Positions 2,532 through 35,237 of a stretch of 64,000 nt of DNA are shown here, one piece after another. The stretch's first letter is position 1, and the number at the start of each line of letters is the position of its first letter. The stretch lies in assembly GCF_000960475.2 (NCBI RefSeq), contig NZ_JZDQ02000029.1, forward strand, positions 1 through 64,000. The letters are read 5' to 3'. Origin of the DNA: Nocardioides luteus (GTDB taxonomy: Bacteria > Actinomycetota > Actinomycetes > Propionibacteriales > Nocardioidaceae). The translations under genes were made by a program, and so were the position numbers. Below the pieces are notes generated by a model that was given only the letters and a program-made list of their open reading frames with translations, had not been told where the DNA came from and did no database searches.

Positions 2532-2594
2532 GCCGAGAAGTCAGAGTCTGACGCCGAGAGGTCGATTTCTGGCCTCGAAGAGTCGATTCTCGAG
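2532..2594 (+). repeat. Cluster 1 of a 21-bp tandem intergenic repeat (3 units)
   Basis: Three contiguous 21-bp units at 2532-2552, 2553-2573 and 2574-2594. The units begin GCCGAGAAGTCAGA, GCCGAGAGGTCGATT and CTCGAAGAGTCGATT, so each carries a CGARRRGTC core followed by a TCT near its end. They are diverged but keep exact period. Similar units occur in opposite orientation at 3670-3732 and in the same orientation at 30833-30874. The function is unknown. Confidence 0.7.
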
Positions 2595-2627
2595 GTCGGG
2601 ATATGCGAGCCTCCGGCCATCGATGAG

Positions 2628-3548
2628 TCACCAGCGACGGTTCGTCATCGCCGGCCTGAGAGCAGCGCGTAGCTCGCGCAGCCAGCGATCGAGATTGTCG
2701 CCAGTGAAGTCGCCGCGGCGTACGACGATCACGGTCCAGCCATGGTCTCGCAACCATCGGCGTCGTTCCGCGTCGTACCTGCGCTGCTCCGCCGTCAGGT
2801 CATGTGCGTCGATGCCGTCATACTCGACGCACACGCGAGCGTGTTCGTAGGCGAAGTCGAGTCGGAAGGTCGGCGCCCCGTCGATCTCGATCCAGAACTG
2901 GGGCCGCGGTGATGGCAGCCCGGCATCGTGGATGGCGAGGAGAGTCCAGGCCTCCCGCGCCGACTCGACCCTCGGTTCGACCAGCGGCGCGAGGTCCTTG
3001 AGCTGTCGTACGCCTCGCCGACCGCGGTAGCGCGGCAGCATGTGCAGGAAGTCGGCTGCCACCAGGCCGTGCTCCCGGGCCAGTGCACACATCGCAGCGA
3101 ACGCCTCTCGGCGACGGAGGTTGCATCCGAGGTCACAGCCTGTGCGGATCGGGACGGTGACTGTGACGCCGCCGATCGTCATGATGTCGGCCGGGACGAG
3201 GTCCCGGATGTGACCGTCGATCCCCGTACGCCGAGACCGGGTGTGCCCGCGCAGGGCACAGGTCTCGAGATCCACATCGAGGTCGAGCTCCGCGTAGGTG
3301 AGGACGTTGACTCCGTGGATGAGCGCGGCGGTGCGGTCGATCACCACATGATGGGGTGCCACGACCCGAGCGACTGCCGCAGCGCGCGTCTGCGGCGTGT
3401 CAGGTGTGCTCGCCGGGATGAACGCGCCGTGCACCACGCGGCGAACGACGCCGTTGTCGATCATGCGGTAGACGTCGTCTGCGCTGAGGCCGATCTCGGC
3501 AGCATCGGCAAGGCTGAATGGGCTGTCGGGCACGGTGAGAGTGGTCAT
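2628..3548 (-). CDS. AbiEi-antitoxin-like / DUF559 domain protein
   Basis: A 306-residue protein. The N-terminal part (MTTLTVPDSPFSLADAAEIG, then a segment ending RRVVHGAF) resembles the winged-helix region of type IV AbiEi-like antitoxins. The C-terminal part (FRLDFAYEHARVCVEYDG, then WTVIVVRRGDF) matches the DUF559/Vsr-like PD-(D/E)XK fold, with the Asp of LDF and the acidic pair of VEYDG as likely metal ligands. The frame is open upstream to 3665, but ATG at 3548 begins the conserved domain. No AbiEii-type nucleotidyltransferase toxin lies beside it, so it is not a standard toxin-antitoxin pair. It is bracketed by 21-bp repeat clusters in opposite orientations. Many such lone genes are found in actinobacteria, and their biochemical role is not established. 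Confidence 0.65.
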   Translation of the reverse strand: MTTLTVPDSPFSLADAAEIGLSADDVYRMIDNGVVRRVVHGAFIPASTPDTPQTRAAAVARVVAPHHVVIDRTAALIHGVNVLTYAELDLDVDLETCALRGHTRSRRTGIDGHIRDLVPADIMTIGGVTVTVPIRTGCDLGCNLRRREAFAAMCALAREHGLVAADFLHMLPRYRGRRGVRQLKDLAPLVEPRVESAREAWTLLAIHDAGLPSPRPQFWIEIDGAPTFRLDFAYEHARVCVEYDGIDAHDLTAEQRRYDAERRRWLRDHGWTVIVVRRGDFTGDNLDRWLRELRAALRPAMTNRRW

Positions 3549-3669
3549 GAGGCCAGCCTCGACGTGGCTGCCGACAGTTCTGAGCCCGTCGCCGGCGCCT
3601 GGGGATAACCGCGTCTTGAGCATCACCTGTGGATGGCAAACGGCCCGGAGCGCTCCGAGAGACACTCGG

Positions 3670-3732
3670 CCTCAAGAATCGACCTCTCGCGTTCGAAGAG
3701 TGACTCGTCGCGCCAGATTCTGACTCTTCGCG
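3670..3732 (-). repeat. Cluster 2 of the 21-bp tandem repeat (3 units, inverted)
   Basis: Read on the minus strand, three contiguous 21-bp units at 3732-3712, 3711-3691 and 3690-3670. They begin CGCGAAGAGTCAGAATCTGG, GCGACGAGTCACTC and GCGAGAGGTCGATT. The third shares the 13 bases CGAGAGGTCGATT with unit 2 of cluster 1, and the first shares the CAGA-TCTG core with unit 1. The cluster is therefore an inverted counterpart of the one at 2532-2594, on the other side of the DUF559 gene. Confidence 0.7.
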
Positions 3733-3785
3733 GTCAGGAAGTGACCGGTCGGGAGGAGGCGGCGCGCGGCTGGCAGGATGGGCGC

Positions 3786-4757
3786 GTGACGATTGTGGCT
3801 GCTGCTGATGGGTCGGCGCTCGGGAACCCGGGGCCTGCGGGGTGGGGTTGGTACGTGGACGAGTCCACGTGGGCCTGCGGCGGCTGGCCGCACGGGACCA
3901 ACAACCAGGGCGAGCTGACCGCGGTCCTCGACCTGCTGCGCCAGACGGCCCACACCGGCGAGCCGCTGCTCGTCTACTGCGACTCCAAGTACGTCATCAA
4001 CTCGGTCACCAAGTGGATGGCCGGCTGGAAGCGCAAGGGCTGGAAGAAGGCCGACGGCAAGCCCGTCCTCAACGTCGAGATCATGAAGGAGCTCGACGCG
4101 GCGATGCAGGGCCGCGACGTCCGGTTCGAGTGGATCAAGGGCCACTCCGGACATCCGCTGAACGAGGCCGCCGACAGGCTCGCGAACGGCGCCGCGCTGG
4201 CCTACCAGCAGGGGAGCGTGCCGGACCCCGGCCCGGGATTCGCGGGGGCCGTCGAGGCGCCCGCGGTCGCGCCGCAGGTCGCGCAGCCCGAGCCCGAGCC
4301 GGACGACCTGCTCGGCCTGCTGGACGCGGAGCCGACGGCGTCCGGGACGAGCCCGGCGTACACCTTCTCGGCCGACCAGAGCCGGATCGACCCCGACTGG
4401 GTGCACCGGATGCTCGCGCAGTCCTACTGGGCGAGCGACCGCACGCGCGAGGTGCAGGACGCGGCCAACAAGGGGTCGCGCTGCTACGGCGTCTACGACG
4501 CGGCGGGCAACCAGGTCGCCTTCGCCCGCGTGGTCAGCGACTTCGCCGCCTTCGCCTGGCTGTGCGACGTGATCGTCGACCCGGGCGTACGCGGCCAGGG
4601 GATCGGCAAGATGCTGATCGAGGGCGTCGTCGCCGACCTCGAGCCCTACCGAATCCGCCGCACCCTGCTGGCCACCGAGGACGCCCACGAGCTCTACGCG
4701 AAGTACGGCTGGGAGCCGCTGCCCGCGCCCGAGCGCTGGATGATCCGCACCCGCTAG
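3786..4757 (+). CDS. rnhA: Ribonuclease HI fused to a GNAT N-acetyltransferase
   Basis: A 323-residue two-domain protein. Residues 1-140 are RNase HI, which cleaves the RNA strand of RNA-DNA hybrids: the catalytic carboxylates are visible as Asp8 (AADGSALGNPGP), Glu43 (NNQGELTAV), Asp66 (YCDSKYV) and the Asp of NEAADRLANG, together with the GHSGHPLNE segment. A Pro/Glu-rich linker follows. The last 130 residues or so are a GNAT domain with the acetyl-CoA loop VDPGVRGQGIGKML. The GTG at 3786 begins the RNase H core exactly; the frame upstream runs through repeat DNA and is unlikely to be translated. The stop overlaps by 4 bp the convergent membrane-protein stop. The acetyl acceptor is unknown. 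Confidence 0.9.
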   Translation: MTIVAAADGSALGNPGPAGWGWYVDESTWACGGWPHGTNNQGELTAVLDLLRQTAHTGEPLLVYCDSKYVINSVTKWMAGWKRKGWKKADGKPVLNVEIMKELDAAMQGRDVRFEWIKGHSGHPLNEAADRLANGAALAYQQGSVPDPGPGFAGAVEAPAVAPQVAQPEPEPDDLLGLLDAEPTASGTSPAYTFSADQSRIDPDWVHRMLAQSYWASDRTREVQDAANKGSRCYGVYDAAGNQVAFARVVSDFAAFAWLCDVIVDPGVRGQGIGKMLIEGVVADLEPYRIRRTLLATEDAHELYAKYGWEPLPAPERWMIRTR

Positions 4758-30832: not shown

Positions 30833-30874
30833 GCCGAGAAGTCACCCCCGTCGCGCGAGAAGTCACGTACGCGA
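30833..30874 (+). repeat. Cluster 3 of the 21-bp tandem repeat (2 units)
   Basis: Two adjacent 21-bp units at 30833-30853 and 30854-30874, beginning GCCGAGAAGTCAC and CGCGAGAAGTCAC. They lie in the 104-bp gap between the ABC permease stop and the lactonase start. A flanking inverted pair GTCACCCC (30841-30848) and GGGGTGAC (30889-30896) could fold the second unit into a loop. Confidence 0.6.
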
Positions 30875-30903
30875 ATCGAGATGGCACCGGGGTGACGCCT
30901 CGG

Positions 30904-32103
30904 CTACTCCTCCAGTCGCCAGGCGGCCTTGAGGGAGAGCTGGCCACCGGTCTGGAGCAGGGCGCGGCTGTAGAGGCGCTCGGCGAGGCGTACCAGCGCG
31001 ATGCCGAAGGCGAGGAGCAGGAGGACGGCGATGATCGGCTCCCACCATGCCGCGCTGCCGTCGACCAGGCGCATCGGCATGAGGACGGCGGACAGCGGTG
31101 GGACGTACGAGCCGACGACCTCGCCGACACCGTCGAGGTAGAGGGCGCCGAAGAACATCACCATGAGGAGCATCGTGATCGGGGTGGAGGAGGACTGCAG
31201 GTCCTCGGTGCGGGAGGCGAGCGCGCCCGCGACCGCCCACAGGGTGGAGAGCACGACGAAGCCGATCAGGAAGAAGACGACGAACCAGCCGATCGCGCTG
31301 GAGAGCGCCGGGAGGGCGAAGCTGAAGTCGGTCAGGCTCAGCCCGACCAGCCCGACGGCCACGTAGATGAGCATCTGTCCTACGGCGATGACGGCGTTGC
31401 CGATGATCTTGCCGGCGAGCAGCTGCCGCAGCGGCACCGCGGCGGCGATCATCTCCACGATCCGCGACTGCTTCTCCTCCACGACGCTGTTGGCCAGGGT
31501 CATGCCGAACATGATCGAGGCGAAGTAGAAGACGATCGCGAGCGCGTAGCCGACGACGTAGCGGATCGCGGTCAGCTCGCTGTCGCCCTCGAGCTGGTCG
31601 ATCGCGACCTCCGACCCCTTGGTCAGCTCGGCCGCGGTGGTGCCGGCGGCGTCGGCGTTGCCGGCTAGGACGATCGCCTCGACCGCCTGGCTGACCACGT
31701 CGCGCAGCTCGGAGTCGGGATCCTCGAGCGTGACCAGCGTCCAGCCCTTGGCGCTCGAGTGCAGGTACGCATCGGCCTGCTCCTCCTCGAGCGCGCGCCG
31801 GGCGGCGTCGGCGTCGTCGACGGCGACCGGTTCGATGCTCACTTTCTCGTCGATGTCGGTGGCGCGTTCGGCGATGCCCTCGGCCATCGCCCGGGCGATC
31901 GCCGAGGAGTAGGCGAGGTCGTAGGTCTTCTCCCGGCTCTCGCTCCACGCGGTGAAGCCGAGCACGCCGACGATGACGGCGAGCATCACCGCGGTGCCGA
32001 TCAGGGTCGACCTGTCGGTGGCGCGGACGGCGATCTCGCGGCGGGCGACGATCTGCCACACCGGCTGGCCCTTGGGCTGGGTCCTGGCTTTCGGAGTCGT
32101 CAT
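30904..32103 (-). CDS. ABC-2 type exporter permease (NatB-like)
   Basis: A 399-residue membrane protein with one N-terminal helix (LIGTAVMLAVIVGVLGFTAWSE), a large extracytoplasmic domain of about 150 residues, then five or six helices. The QIVARREIAVRATDRS opening and NSVVEEKQSRIVEMIAAAVPLRQLLAGKIIGNA are the NatB/ABC-2 coupling-helix region. With the ATPase it should export sodium, a drug or a peptide. ATG overlaps the ATPase stop by 4 bp. Confidence 0.9.
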   Translation of the reverse strand: MTTPKARTQPKGQPVWQIVARREIAVRATDRSTLIGTAVMLAVIVGVLGFTAWSESREKTYDLAYSSAIARAMAEGIAERATDIDEKVSIEPVAVDDADAARRALEEEQADAYLHSSAKGWTLVTLEDPDSELRDVVSQAVEAIVLAGNADAAGTTAAELTKGSEVAIDQLEGDSELTAIRYVVGYALAIVFYFASIMFGMTLANSVVEEKQSRIVEMIAAAVPLRQLLAGKIIGNAVIAVGQMLIYVAVGLVGLSLTDFSFALPALSSAIGWFVVFFLIGFVVLSTLWAVAGALASRTEDLQSSSTPITMLLMVMFFGALYLDGVGEVVGSYVPPLSAVLMPMRLVDGSAAWWEPIIAVLLLLAFGIALVRLAERLYSRALLQTGGQLSLKAAWRLEE

Positions 32104-35168: not shown

Positions 35169-35237
35169 CGGGGTAGTCCGGGAGCGAACTGCCCATTTAC
35201 TGGCGAGTAATAGGCAGCTCGCTCCCGGACTACCCCG
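35169..35237 (-). terminator. Long near-perfect hairpin after the DEAD-box helicase gene
   Basis: Arms of 25 bp at 35169-35193 and 35213-35237 pair with a single mismatch (stem core GGGGTAGTCCGGGAGCGA). The 19-base loop contains its own perfect 5-bp inverted repeat TTACT-GGCG-AGTAA (35197-35210). It begins 3 bp after the helicase stop. The position suits a terminator; its size and nested loop are more elaborate than usual. Confidence 0.7.

Follow-up and report, generated by a model that had tools for sequence, protein, structure and literature searches.

A DUF559 gene bracketed by inverted arrays of 21-bp units, and dispersed palindromes resembling its flanks, in Nocardioides and related actinobacteria: a candidate single-gene nuclease element

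The ends of Tn7 carry several repeated sites in inverted orientation. Short repeats also accompany single enzyme genes. In the REP/RAYT (TnpA-REP) systems, or REPtrons, RAYT genes are flanked by REPs, and gene-less REPs are dispersed. For the genomes covered in the sections of two reports drawn on here, most REPs are placed no more than 20 bp from the 3′ end of a gene, and some are described as supplying stop codons (PMC3733652, PMC8266576). The EDxHD homing endonuclease I-Bth0305I, in the portion of its description used here, joins a reader region to a cutting domain and is encoded by a gene that interrupts a palindrome (PMC3943268). AbiEi proteins, of the AbiE type IV toxin–antitoxin systems, are described in the excerpted source as binding 23-bp inverted repeats, with four in tandem in one case (PMC7319586). 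DUF559, by comparison, is a Pfam family named as one of unknown function.

A DUF559 gene that shares features with each of these systems lies in a 64,000-nucleotide stretch of Nocardioides luteus DNA, the whole of which was analyzed and is here called the window. As the original prediction had it, two clusters of 21-bp units facing in opposite directions flank one intact gene; the right cluster, however, comprises four units reaching about 3753, not three ending at 3732 (Table 1). In the left arm, position weight matrix (PWM) matches fall at 2533, 2554, and 2575, giving a period of exactly 21 bp, and in the right arm minus-strand units were scored at 3671, 3712, and 3733, the spacings of 41 and 21 bp reflecting one degenerate unit between the first two. 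The gene to the left is assigned to a LacI-type regulator by a Pfam Peripla_BP_3 match (1.9e-34) for 1607–2524. A chance repeat can be ruled out both by genome-wide matches against a reversed control and by cross-flank scores against control genes: CGARRRGTCRGAWTCTNGC, at up to two mismatches, is matched 11 times in the genome, three of them in the window, and its reversed control not at all, while the cross-flank inverted-repeat score is 26 for the DUF559 gene versus at most 18 for 54 other scored genes of the window. Within the 64-kb window alone, a related pattern is only weakly above chance, its three matches being equaled in 9 of 100 shuffles.

Table 1. Positions of the DUF559 locus, its neighbors, and two gene-less hairpin-like stretches in the window
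Feature	Position	Strand	Basis or remark
LacI-type regulator gene, stop codon	2525..2527	+	Read from sequence; left array begins 4 bp further on
Left arm of three 21-bp units in tandem (last one degenerate)	2532..2594	+	Sequence and PWM
DUF559 gene, 306 aa	2628..3548	-	PF04480; residues 1-191 modeled as AbiEi-antitoxin-like, 196-302 as Vsr/I-Bth0305I-like nuclease
Right arm of four units in tandem (one of them degenerate), in opposite orientation to left arm	3670..3753 (about)	-	Sequence and PWM
RNase H-acetyltransferase (GNAT) fusion gene, outside the element	3786..4757	+	Same flanks found in G038
Gene-less hairpin-like stretch, related to second repeat family	30833..30905		Adjoins stop of minus-strand gene, 3′ end 30904
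Gene-less hairpin, third family	35169..35237		Adjoins stop of minus-strand gene, 3′ end 35240

The label AbiEi/DUF559 first given to the gene can be refined, in that the gene belongs to DUF559 by its Pfam match and it is the first half of the product that is AbiEi-like, a half that both PADLOC and Pfam models label AbiEi. In the structure model (pLDDT 90.5, built from a 25-sequence alignment), the protein is modeled as an AbiEi-antitoxin-like half fused to a homing-endonuclease/Vsr-like nuclease. Residues 1–191 of the model are similar to the AbiEi antitoxin (Foldseek E 1e-5, prob 1.00; Z 9.9 over 173 residues, rmsd 9.0), and residues 196–302 resemble the catalytic domain of I-Bth0305I (3r3p; Z 11.5, rmsd 2.6 over 97 residues), Vsr (1cw0; Z 9.3, rmsd 3.4 over 102), and TnsA (Z 8.1); the fold lists also contain unrelated rows, namely mitoribosome chains. 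Furthermore, D231, E242, D244, H249, and D259 are invariant in all 36 aligned rows (two loci being entered twice) and at least 90% conserved in a 25-row alignment with distant members; to judge from the predicted fold, these residues form a putative active site.

With Tn7, the locus would share the nuclease fold of TnsA, as modeled, and ends bearing repeated sites in inverted orientation; unlike Tn7, it has a single gene, and no transposase partner is encoded between the arms of the window locus. With AbiE, it would share the AbiEi-like first 191 residues of the model, along with repeats similar in size to those that the excerpted account (PMC7319586) describes as bound by AbiEi, but the nuclease fused to this half and the presence of repeats on both sides and in dispersed copies set it apart. 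An AbiE toxin–antitoxin pair was ruled out for the window, where no nucleotidyltransferase toxin gene lies beside the DUF559 gene, the neighbors being the LacI-type regulator and RNase H–GNAT genes.

Bracketing was scored by comparing the upstream flank of a gene with the reverse complement of its downstream flank, a score of at least 22 being counted as a pass. A second DUF559 gene of the window genome (G000), 53% identical to the first, is flanked on both sides by another 21-bp unit, GCCGAGGCGTCACCCCCGTCG, and scores 34. Among the paralogues in this genome, L089 (57) and L092 (33) pass and L090 (L005) fails at 18; paralogue L091 and locus L100 received no score in the test of close homologues. 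In that test, based on 27 relatives from a scan of named genomes (mostly Nocardioides, the remainder near kin), 20 of 22 close homologues were bracketed, versus maximum scores of 19 for non-adjacent neighbors (n = 76), 16 for adjacent neighbors (n = 53), and 18 for window genes (n = 54). Four distant relatives, at about 30% identity, failed with scores of 12–14. L112 scored 10 with a mis-called gene start and 57 with the start corrected, and L111 scored 16 although its units are visible.

The same arrangement was found in larger samples. Across 15 Nocardioides genomes, the profile gave 56 matches, of which 54 were fetched and 52 had both flanks; 33 of these 52 DUF559 genes were bracketed (37 under a looser choice of start). 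In the controls, passes numbered 71 among 2482 mispaired flanks and none among 49 neighbor genes. Scores of mispaired flanks reach 129 in this set, for which our guess is that neighbors are shared in opposite orientation. At the level of the class, a DUF559 profile match (E ≤ 1e-8) was detected in 57 of 79 genomes, and 17 of 27 best-match genes were bracketed versus 13 of 702 mispaired flanks, the remaining 10 failing; these loci were taken one per genome, three being from Nocardioides, and two of the original 29 (L125 and L144) were dropped when their frame was not found. Mispaired flanks served as the class-wide control, the neighbor-gene control (maximum 57) being contaminated by genes that share the arms. 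As a side observation, the most profile matches per genome in the class scan came from three genomes of one genus, G100, G145, and G161, with 13, 14, and 10, respectively.

Taking Nocardioides and near kin together, 54 of 75 scored genes are bracketed, or 51 of 72 distinct loci, three loci occurring twice. In 38 of the 54 (36 of 51 distinct loci), only the arms are present, as one palindrome split by the gene; a full hairpin stands on one side in 15 (14 distinct) and on both sides in one. Full hairpins on either side of the gene were also seen in G138, a member of another family (L141). The 21 of 75 genes that have no matching flanks are mostly distant relatives, and include the close ones L111, L184, L186, and L187. 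Terminal inverted repeats, a MITE- or IS-like feature, are present, with unit sequences that differ between DUF559 lineages and agree on both sides of one gene. The early reading of the window, that DUF559/AbiEi genes are regularly bracketed by such repeats, with period and orientation kept while sequence drifts, was borne out across Nocardioides and other actinobacterial genomes.

In its split palindrome and its modeled catalytic fold, the arrangement resembles that of EDxHD homing endonucleases such as I-Bth0305I, with the palindrome as the presumed target. It differs from them in that the predicted DNA-binding half is AbiEi-like, the sites are multi-copy intergenic palindromes, and cutting is putative.

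The units of the window locus (family 1) occur well beyond it. A search model of 42 nt, two units long, gave at E < 0.01 at least 22 matches in at least eight loci of the window genome, with 150 of 5603 candidates scored, so that the pattern is not confined to the window gene. At least seven further family-1 loci lie outside the window, several of them uninterrupted hairpins beside stop codons, and four that were read base by base consist of plus units, a short loop, and then minus units. One family-1 hairpin has a folding energy of −116.6 kcal/mol (z −8.98). The copy in the window has the appearance of a hairpin of this type that is split by the DUF559 gene. Whether the repeat always brackets single genes, DUF559/AbiEi genes in particular, had been asked at the outset, and this is not the case. 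Most of the family-1 loci that were read consist of a hairpin or array with no gene inside, next to a stop codon. Nor is the bracketed gene always DUF559, as arms enclose a response regulator gene (L051), a gene with weak similarity to PemK (L076), and a small open reading frame (L084), in the last case with one weak unit. Rfam gave no match in 13 loci at the gathering threshold.

Placement of the family-1 copies is closely tied to gene ends. Six other loci of the window genome, read with gene calls, are all at gene ends, and units stand at or just past stop codons, often between convergent genes. Indeed, in 29 of 51 gene-end/unit pairs, defined by gene calls made in the present analysis, the stop codon falls at two of the 21 possible unit phases: at the position of the unit-ending TGA in 19 pairs (TAA in two) and at a TAG within a unit such as GCCGAGTAGTC in 10. 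Two family-1 arrays lie in frame inside genes. At L066 (11639–11742), five in-frame 21-bp units form a linker of heptad repeats that joins the lipoyl domain to the E3-binding domain in a 2-oxoacid dehydrogenase E2 acyltransferase, and at L050 (5953–5993), two units lie within the coding region of a DUF255 protein with the frame unbroken.

In a survey of 98 genomes of the genus, a family-1 match was found in eight, including the window genome, with 50 matches in G038 and 20 in G000 under the same filters. Four of eight family-1 loci of G000 have a counterpart in G038 with the same flank, on both sides in three cases and on a single side at L083. For the other four, loss as well as gain could be responsible, and weak copies in G038 may be missed. 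Separately, comparison of L048 (5502–6160) with L082 showed a HepT-like/nucleotidyltransferase gene pair between a gene end and the hairpin in G038 that is absent at the G000 locus.

An enzyme gene flanked by short palindromes, with cognate gene-less palindromes dispersed and, for family 1, situated at gene ends, recalls the REPtrons. Nevertheless, the enzyme here is AbiEi plus Vsr-like rather than HUH Y1, the GTAG tag at the foot of the REP palindrome is absent from the family-1 unit consensus, and the units are tandem, about 21 bp long, and set in inverted arms. The RAYT transposase domain PF01797 (HUH Y1) was detected in none of seven genomes, a control search being positive in 5 of 14 known genomes, which rules out RAYT as the mobilizer in those seven. 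Because of this result and the lack of GTAG in the family-1 unit, the locus is not considered a member of the REPtrons.

A pairing of DUF559 genes with their own dispersed repeats was also apparent in a second family, the pattern of which was counted at up to three mismatches. It occurs 377 times in G000, 341 times in G038, and 274 times in G051, and in all three the orthologous DUF559 gene bears the unit. Elsewhere, it was found 128 times in G071, 30 times in G001 (where the gene has a variant), and 0–4 times in seven other genomes, with reversed controls giving 0–3. The distribution of the gene-less repeats largely follows that of DUF559 genes bearing the matching unit. At the orthologous locus of G071, the DUF559 gene bears a GTAGTT unit, not the second-family unit; matches to the GTAGTT unit number 46 in G071, 12 in G051, 9 in G000, and 0–1 elsewhere. 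We interpret the G071 case as suggesting that repeats may outlive their enzyme. In addition, outside this family, the half-hairpin TTGATCATGGAGAAATCGG has 14, 27, and 3 matches in three genomes of one genus of a different family, at two per full hairpin, and none in nine other genomes.

Arm similarity was found to rise with protein identity among 48 bracketed genes of 57 scored, duplicates removed (rho 0.457, a value reached in none of 2000 permutations; 0.42 when pairs above 80% identity are removed). Shared ancestry of gene and flank could account for part of this co-variation. The orphan hairpins between relA and DUF349 genes provide a further comparison. Such hairpins, picked by eye in eight genomes, were scored against flanks from 54 DUF559 genes; for five of the eight, a clear match (scores 37, 111, 50, 38, and 48) is present beside a DUF559 gene in their own genome, which is the best flank overall for four of them and for the fifth is second to a close variant in G011. 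The hairpins of G008, G020, and G039 have no cognate flank in their own genomes (16, 18, and 12). A score of 50 between the G008 hairpin and a DUF559 flank of G066 was discarded as due to the shared DUF349 coding end, the interval alone giving at most 17. Overall, there is good evidence that gene and repeat are paired.

The relA–DUF349 site is itself occupied in different ways. Among 36 loci inspected (relA and DUF349 being named by Pfam), of which the interval was measured in 32, six intervals have no repeats and span −4 to 22 bp; stop codons blur the junction, and these intervals are too short to show clean excision or target duplication. The remaining intervals contain gene-less hairpins of differing sequence, AbiEi-like genes, or unrelated genes, and a bracketed DUF559 gene lies beside apparently the same relA end in three named genomes (L096, L103, and L110). 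Two smaller observations concern this site. In G011 (L157 and L194), a 31-bp tandem unit, GCCGAGCGGGCACTTCGTCGCGCTGGATCAC, occurs at the relA site, and a related unit occurs in the arms with the highest bracketing score (128) under the looser choice of start. In L161 and L175, AbiEi-like genes with an LDF...EFDG-type second half occupy the relA interval beside palindromes of their own, the gene at L175 having a weak Pfam AbiEi_4 match only.

The explanation that we consider probable is a nuclease element of one gene, accompanied by a family of palindromic repeats specific to it and working in the manner of a REPtron with an unrelated enzyme. The AbiEi-like half would bind the units, one site per unit, and the nuclease half would cut at the palindrome. 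Repair of the cut could then copy palindromes into new sites, with or without the gene, and most of the copies that survive would be those at gene ends, where a unit can provide the stop codon (TGA or TAG). The gene itself would be seated in the palindrome loop, as a homing gene is in its own target. The 23-bp inverted repeats to which AbiEi proteins bind, in one instance as a tandem of four, would fit one unit per reader domain. No movement of this candidate element was observed.

Binding of the units could also serve regulation, with the AbiEi-like half as a repressor, the units as its operators, and the dispersed hairpins as regulon sites or chance descendants. The excerpted source (PMC7319586) describes 23-bp inverted repeats in the promoters of AbiEi and Rv2827c as binding sites for these same proteins, and the right arm does lie upstream of the window gene. 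However, arrays are also present on the downstream side, family-1 copies are placed at the 3′ ends of genes and not at promoters, the second family has hundreds of copies, and the nuclease domain has been kept with its invariant residues; we consider the operator explanation unlikely. Binding for autoregulation and binding for mobility are not exclusive; the original prediction offered either a cassette boundary or a protein-binding array, and with an AbiEi-like half in the protein and 23-bp inverted repeats bound by AbiEi antitoxins, both may be right.

A role of the hairpins as 3′-end terminators or mRNA stabilizers adopted by the host, with DUF559 as a passenger in the intergenic gap, is highly improbable: the position of family-1 units at or after stop codons, often between convergent genes, and the strong folding of the hairpin examined are what it would lead one to expect, but it leaves unexplained both a repeat that varies with DUF559 lineage and matches on the two sides of the gene and the resemblance of five of eight orphan relA-site hairpins to a DUF559 flank of the same genome, and REPs, which share the 3′-end placement, are thought to be mobile in the part of the literature consulted (PMC3733652). 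Movement of the repeats by another transposase, with DUF559 as cargo or as a co-traveling domesticated or defense nuclease, would suit the AbiEi calls by PADLOC and Pfam and the membership of AbiEi in a toxin–antitoxin family of phage defense (as far as the source excerpt goes), yet we give it very little credence, given that PF01797, the transposase searched for, is absent from all seven genomes, that a DUF559 gene lies between the arms at the bracketed sites read, and that different repeat families recur beside DUF559 genes.

Extending the single-gene nuclease element beyond the loci described is a claim on which we are evenly divided: a widespread, unrecognized class of mobile elements in Actinomycetia may combine an AbiEi-type reader with a homing-endonuclease-type cutter, and may inhabit, copy, and diversify its own palindrome family. 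Such a class would stand beside the REPtrons as their non-HUH counterpart and would be one origin of the intergenic hairpin families at actinobacterial gene ends, its reader domain and its repeat shifting specificity in step. Searches of an open-access library, outside of which lie preprints and most subscription papers, turned up no description of repeats accompanying DUF559. The pairing of DUF559 genes with repeat families gives the common AbiEi–DUF559 genes a testable function and some intergenic hairpins an origin; it also provides natural reader–site pairs from which DNA-binding specificity could be learned. Moreover, it would point to more than one origin of dispersed-palindrome systems, the enzymes being unrelated.

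The third-family hairpin of the window is a strong 29-bp inverted repeat (93%), and it resembles both flanks of a DUF559 locus in another Nocardioides genome (L219), with scores of 33 and 27, the next-best locus scoring 17.
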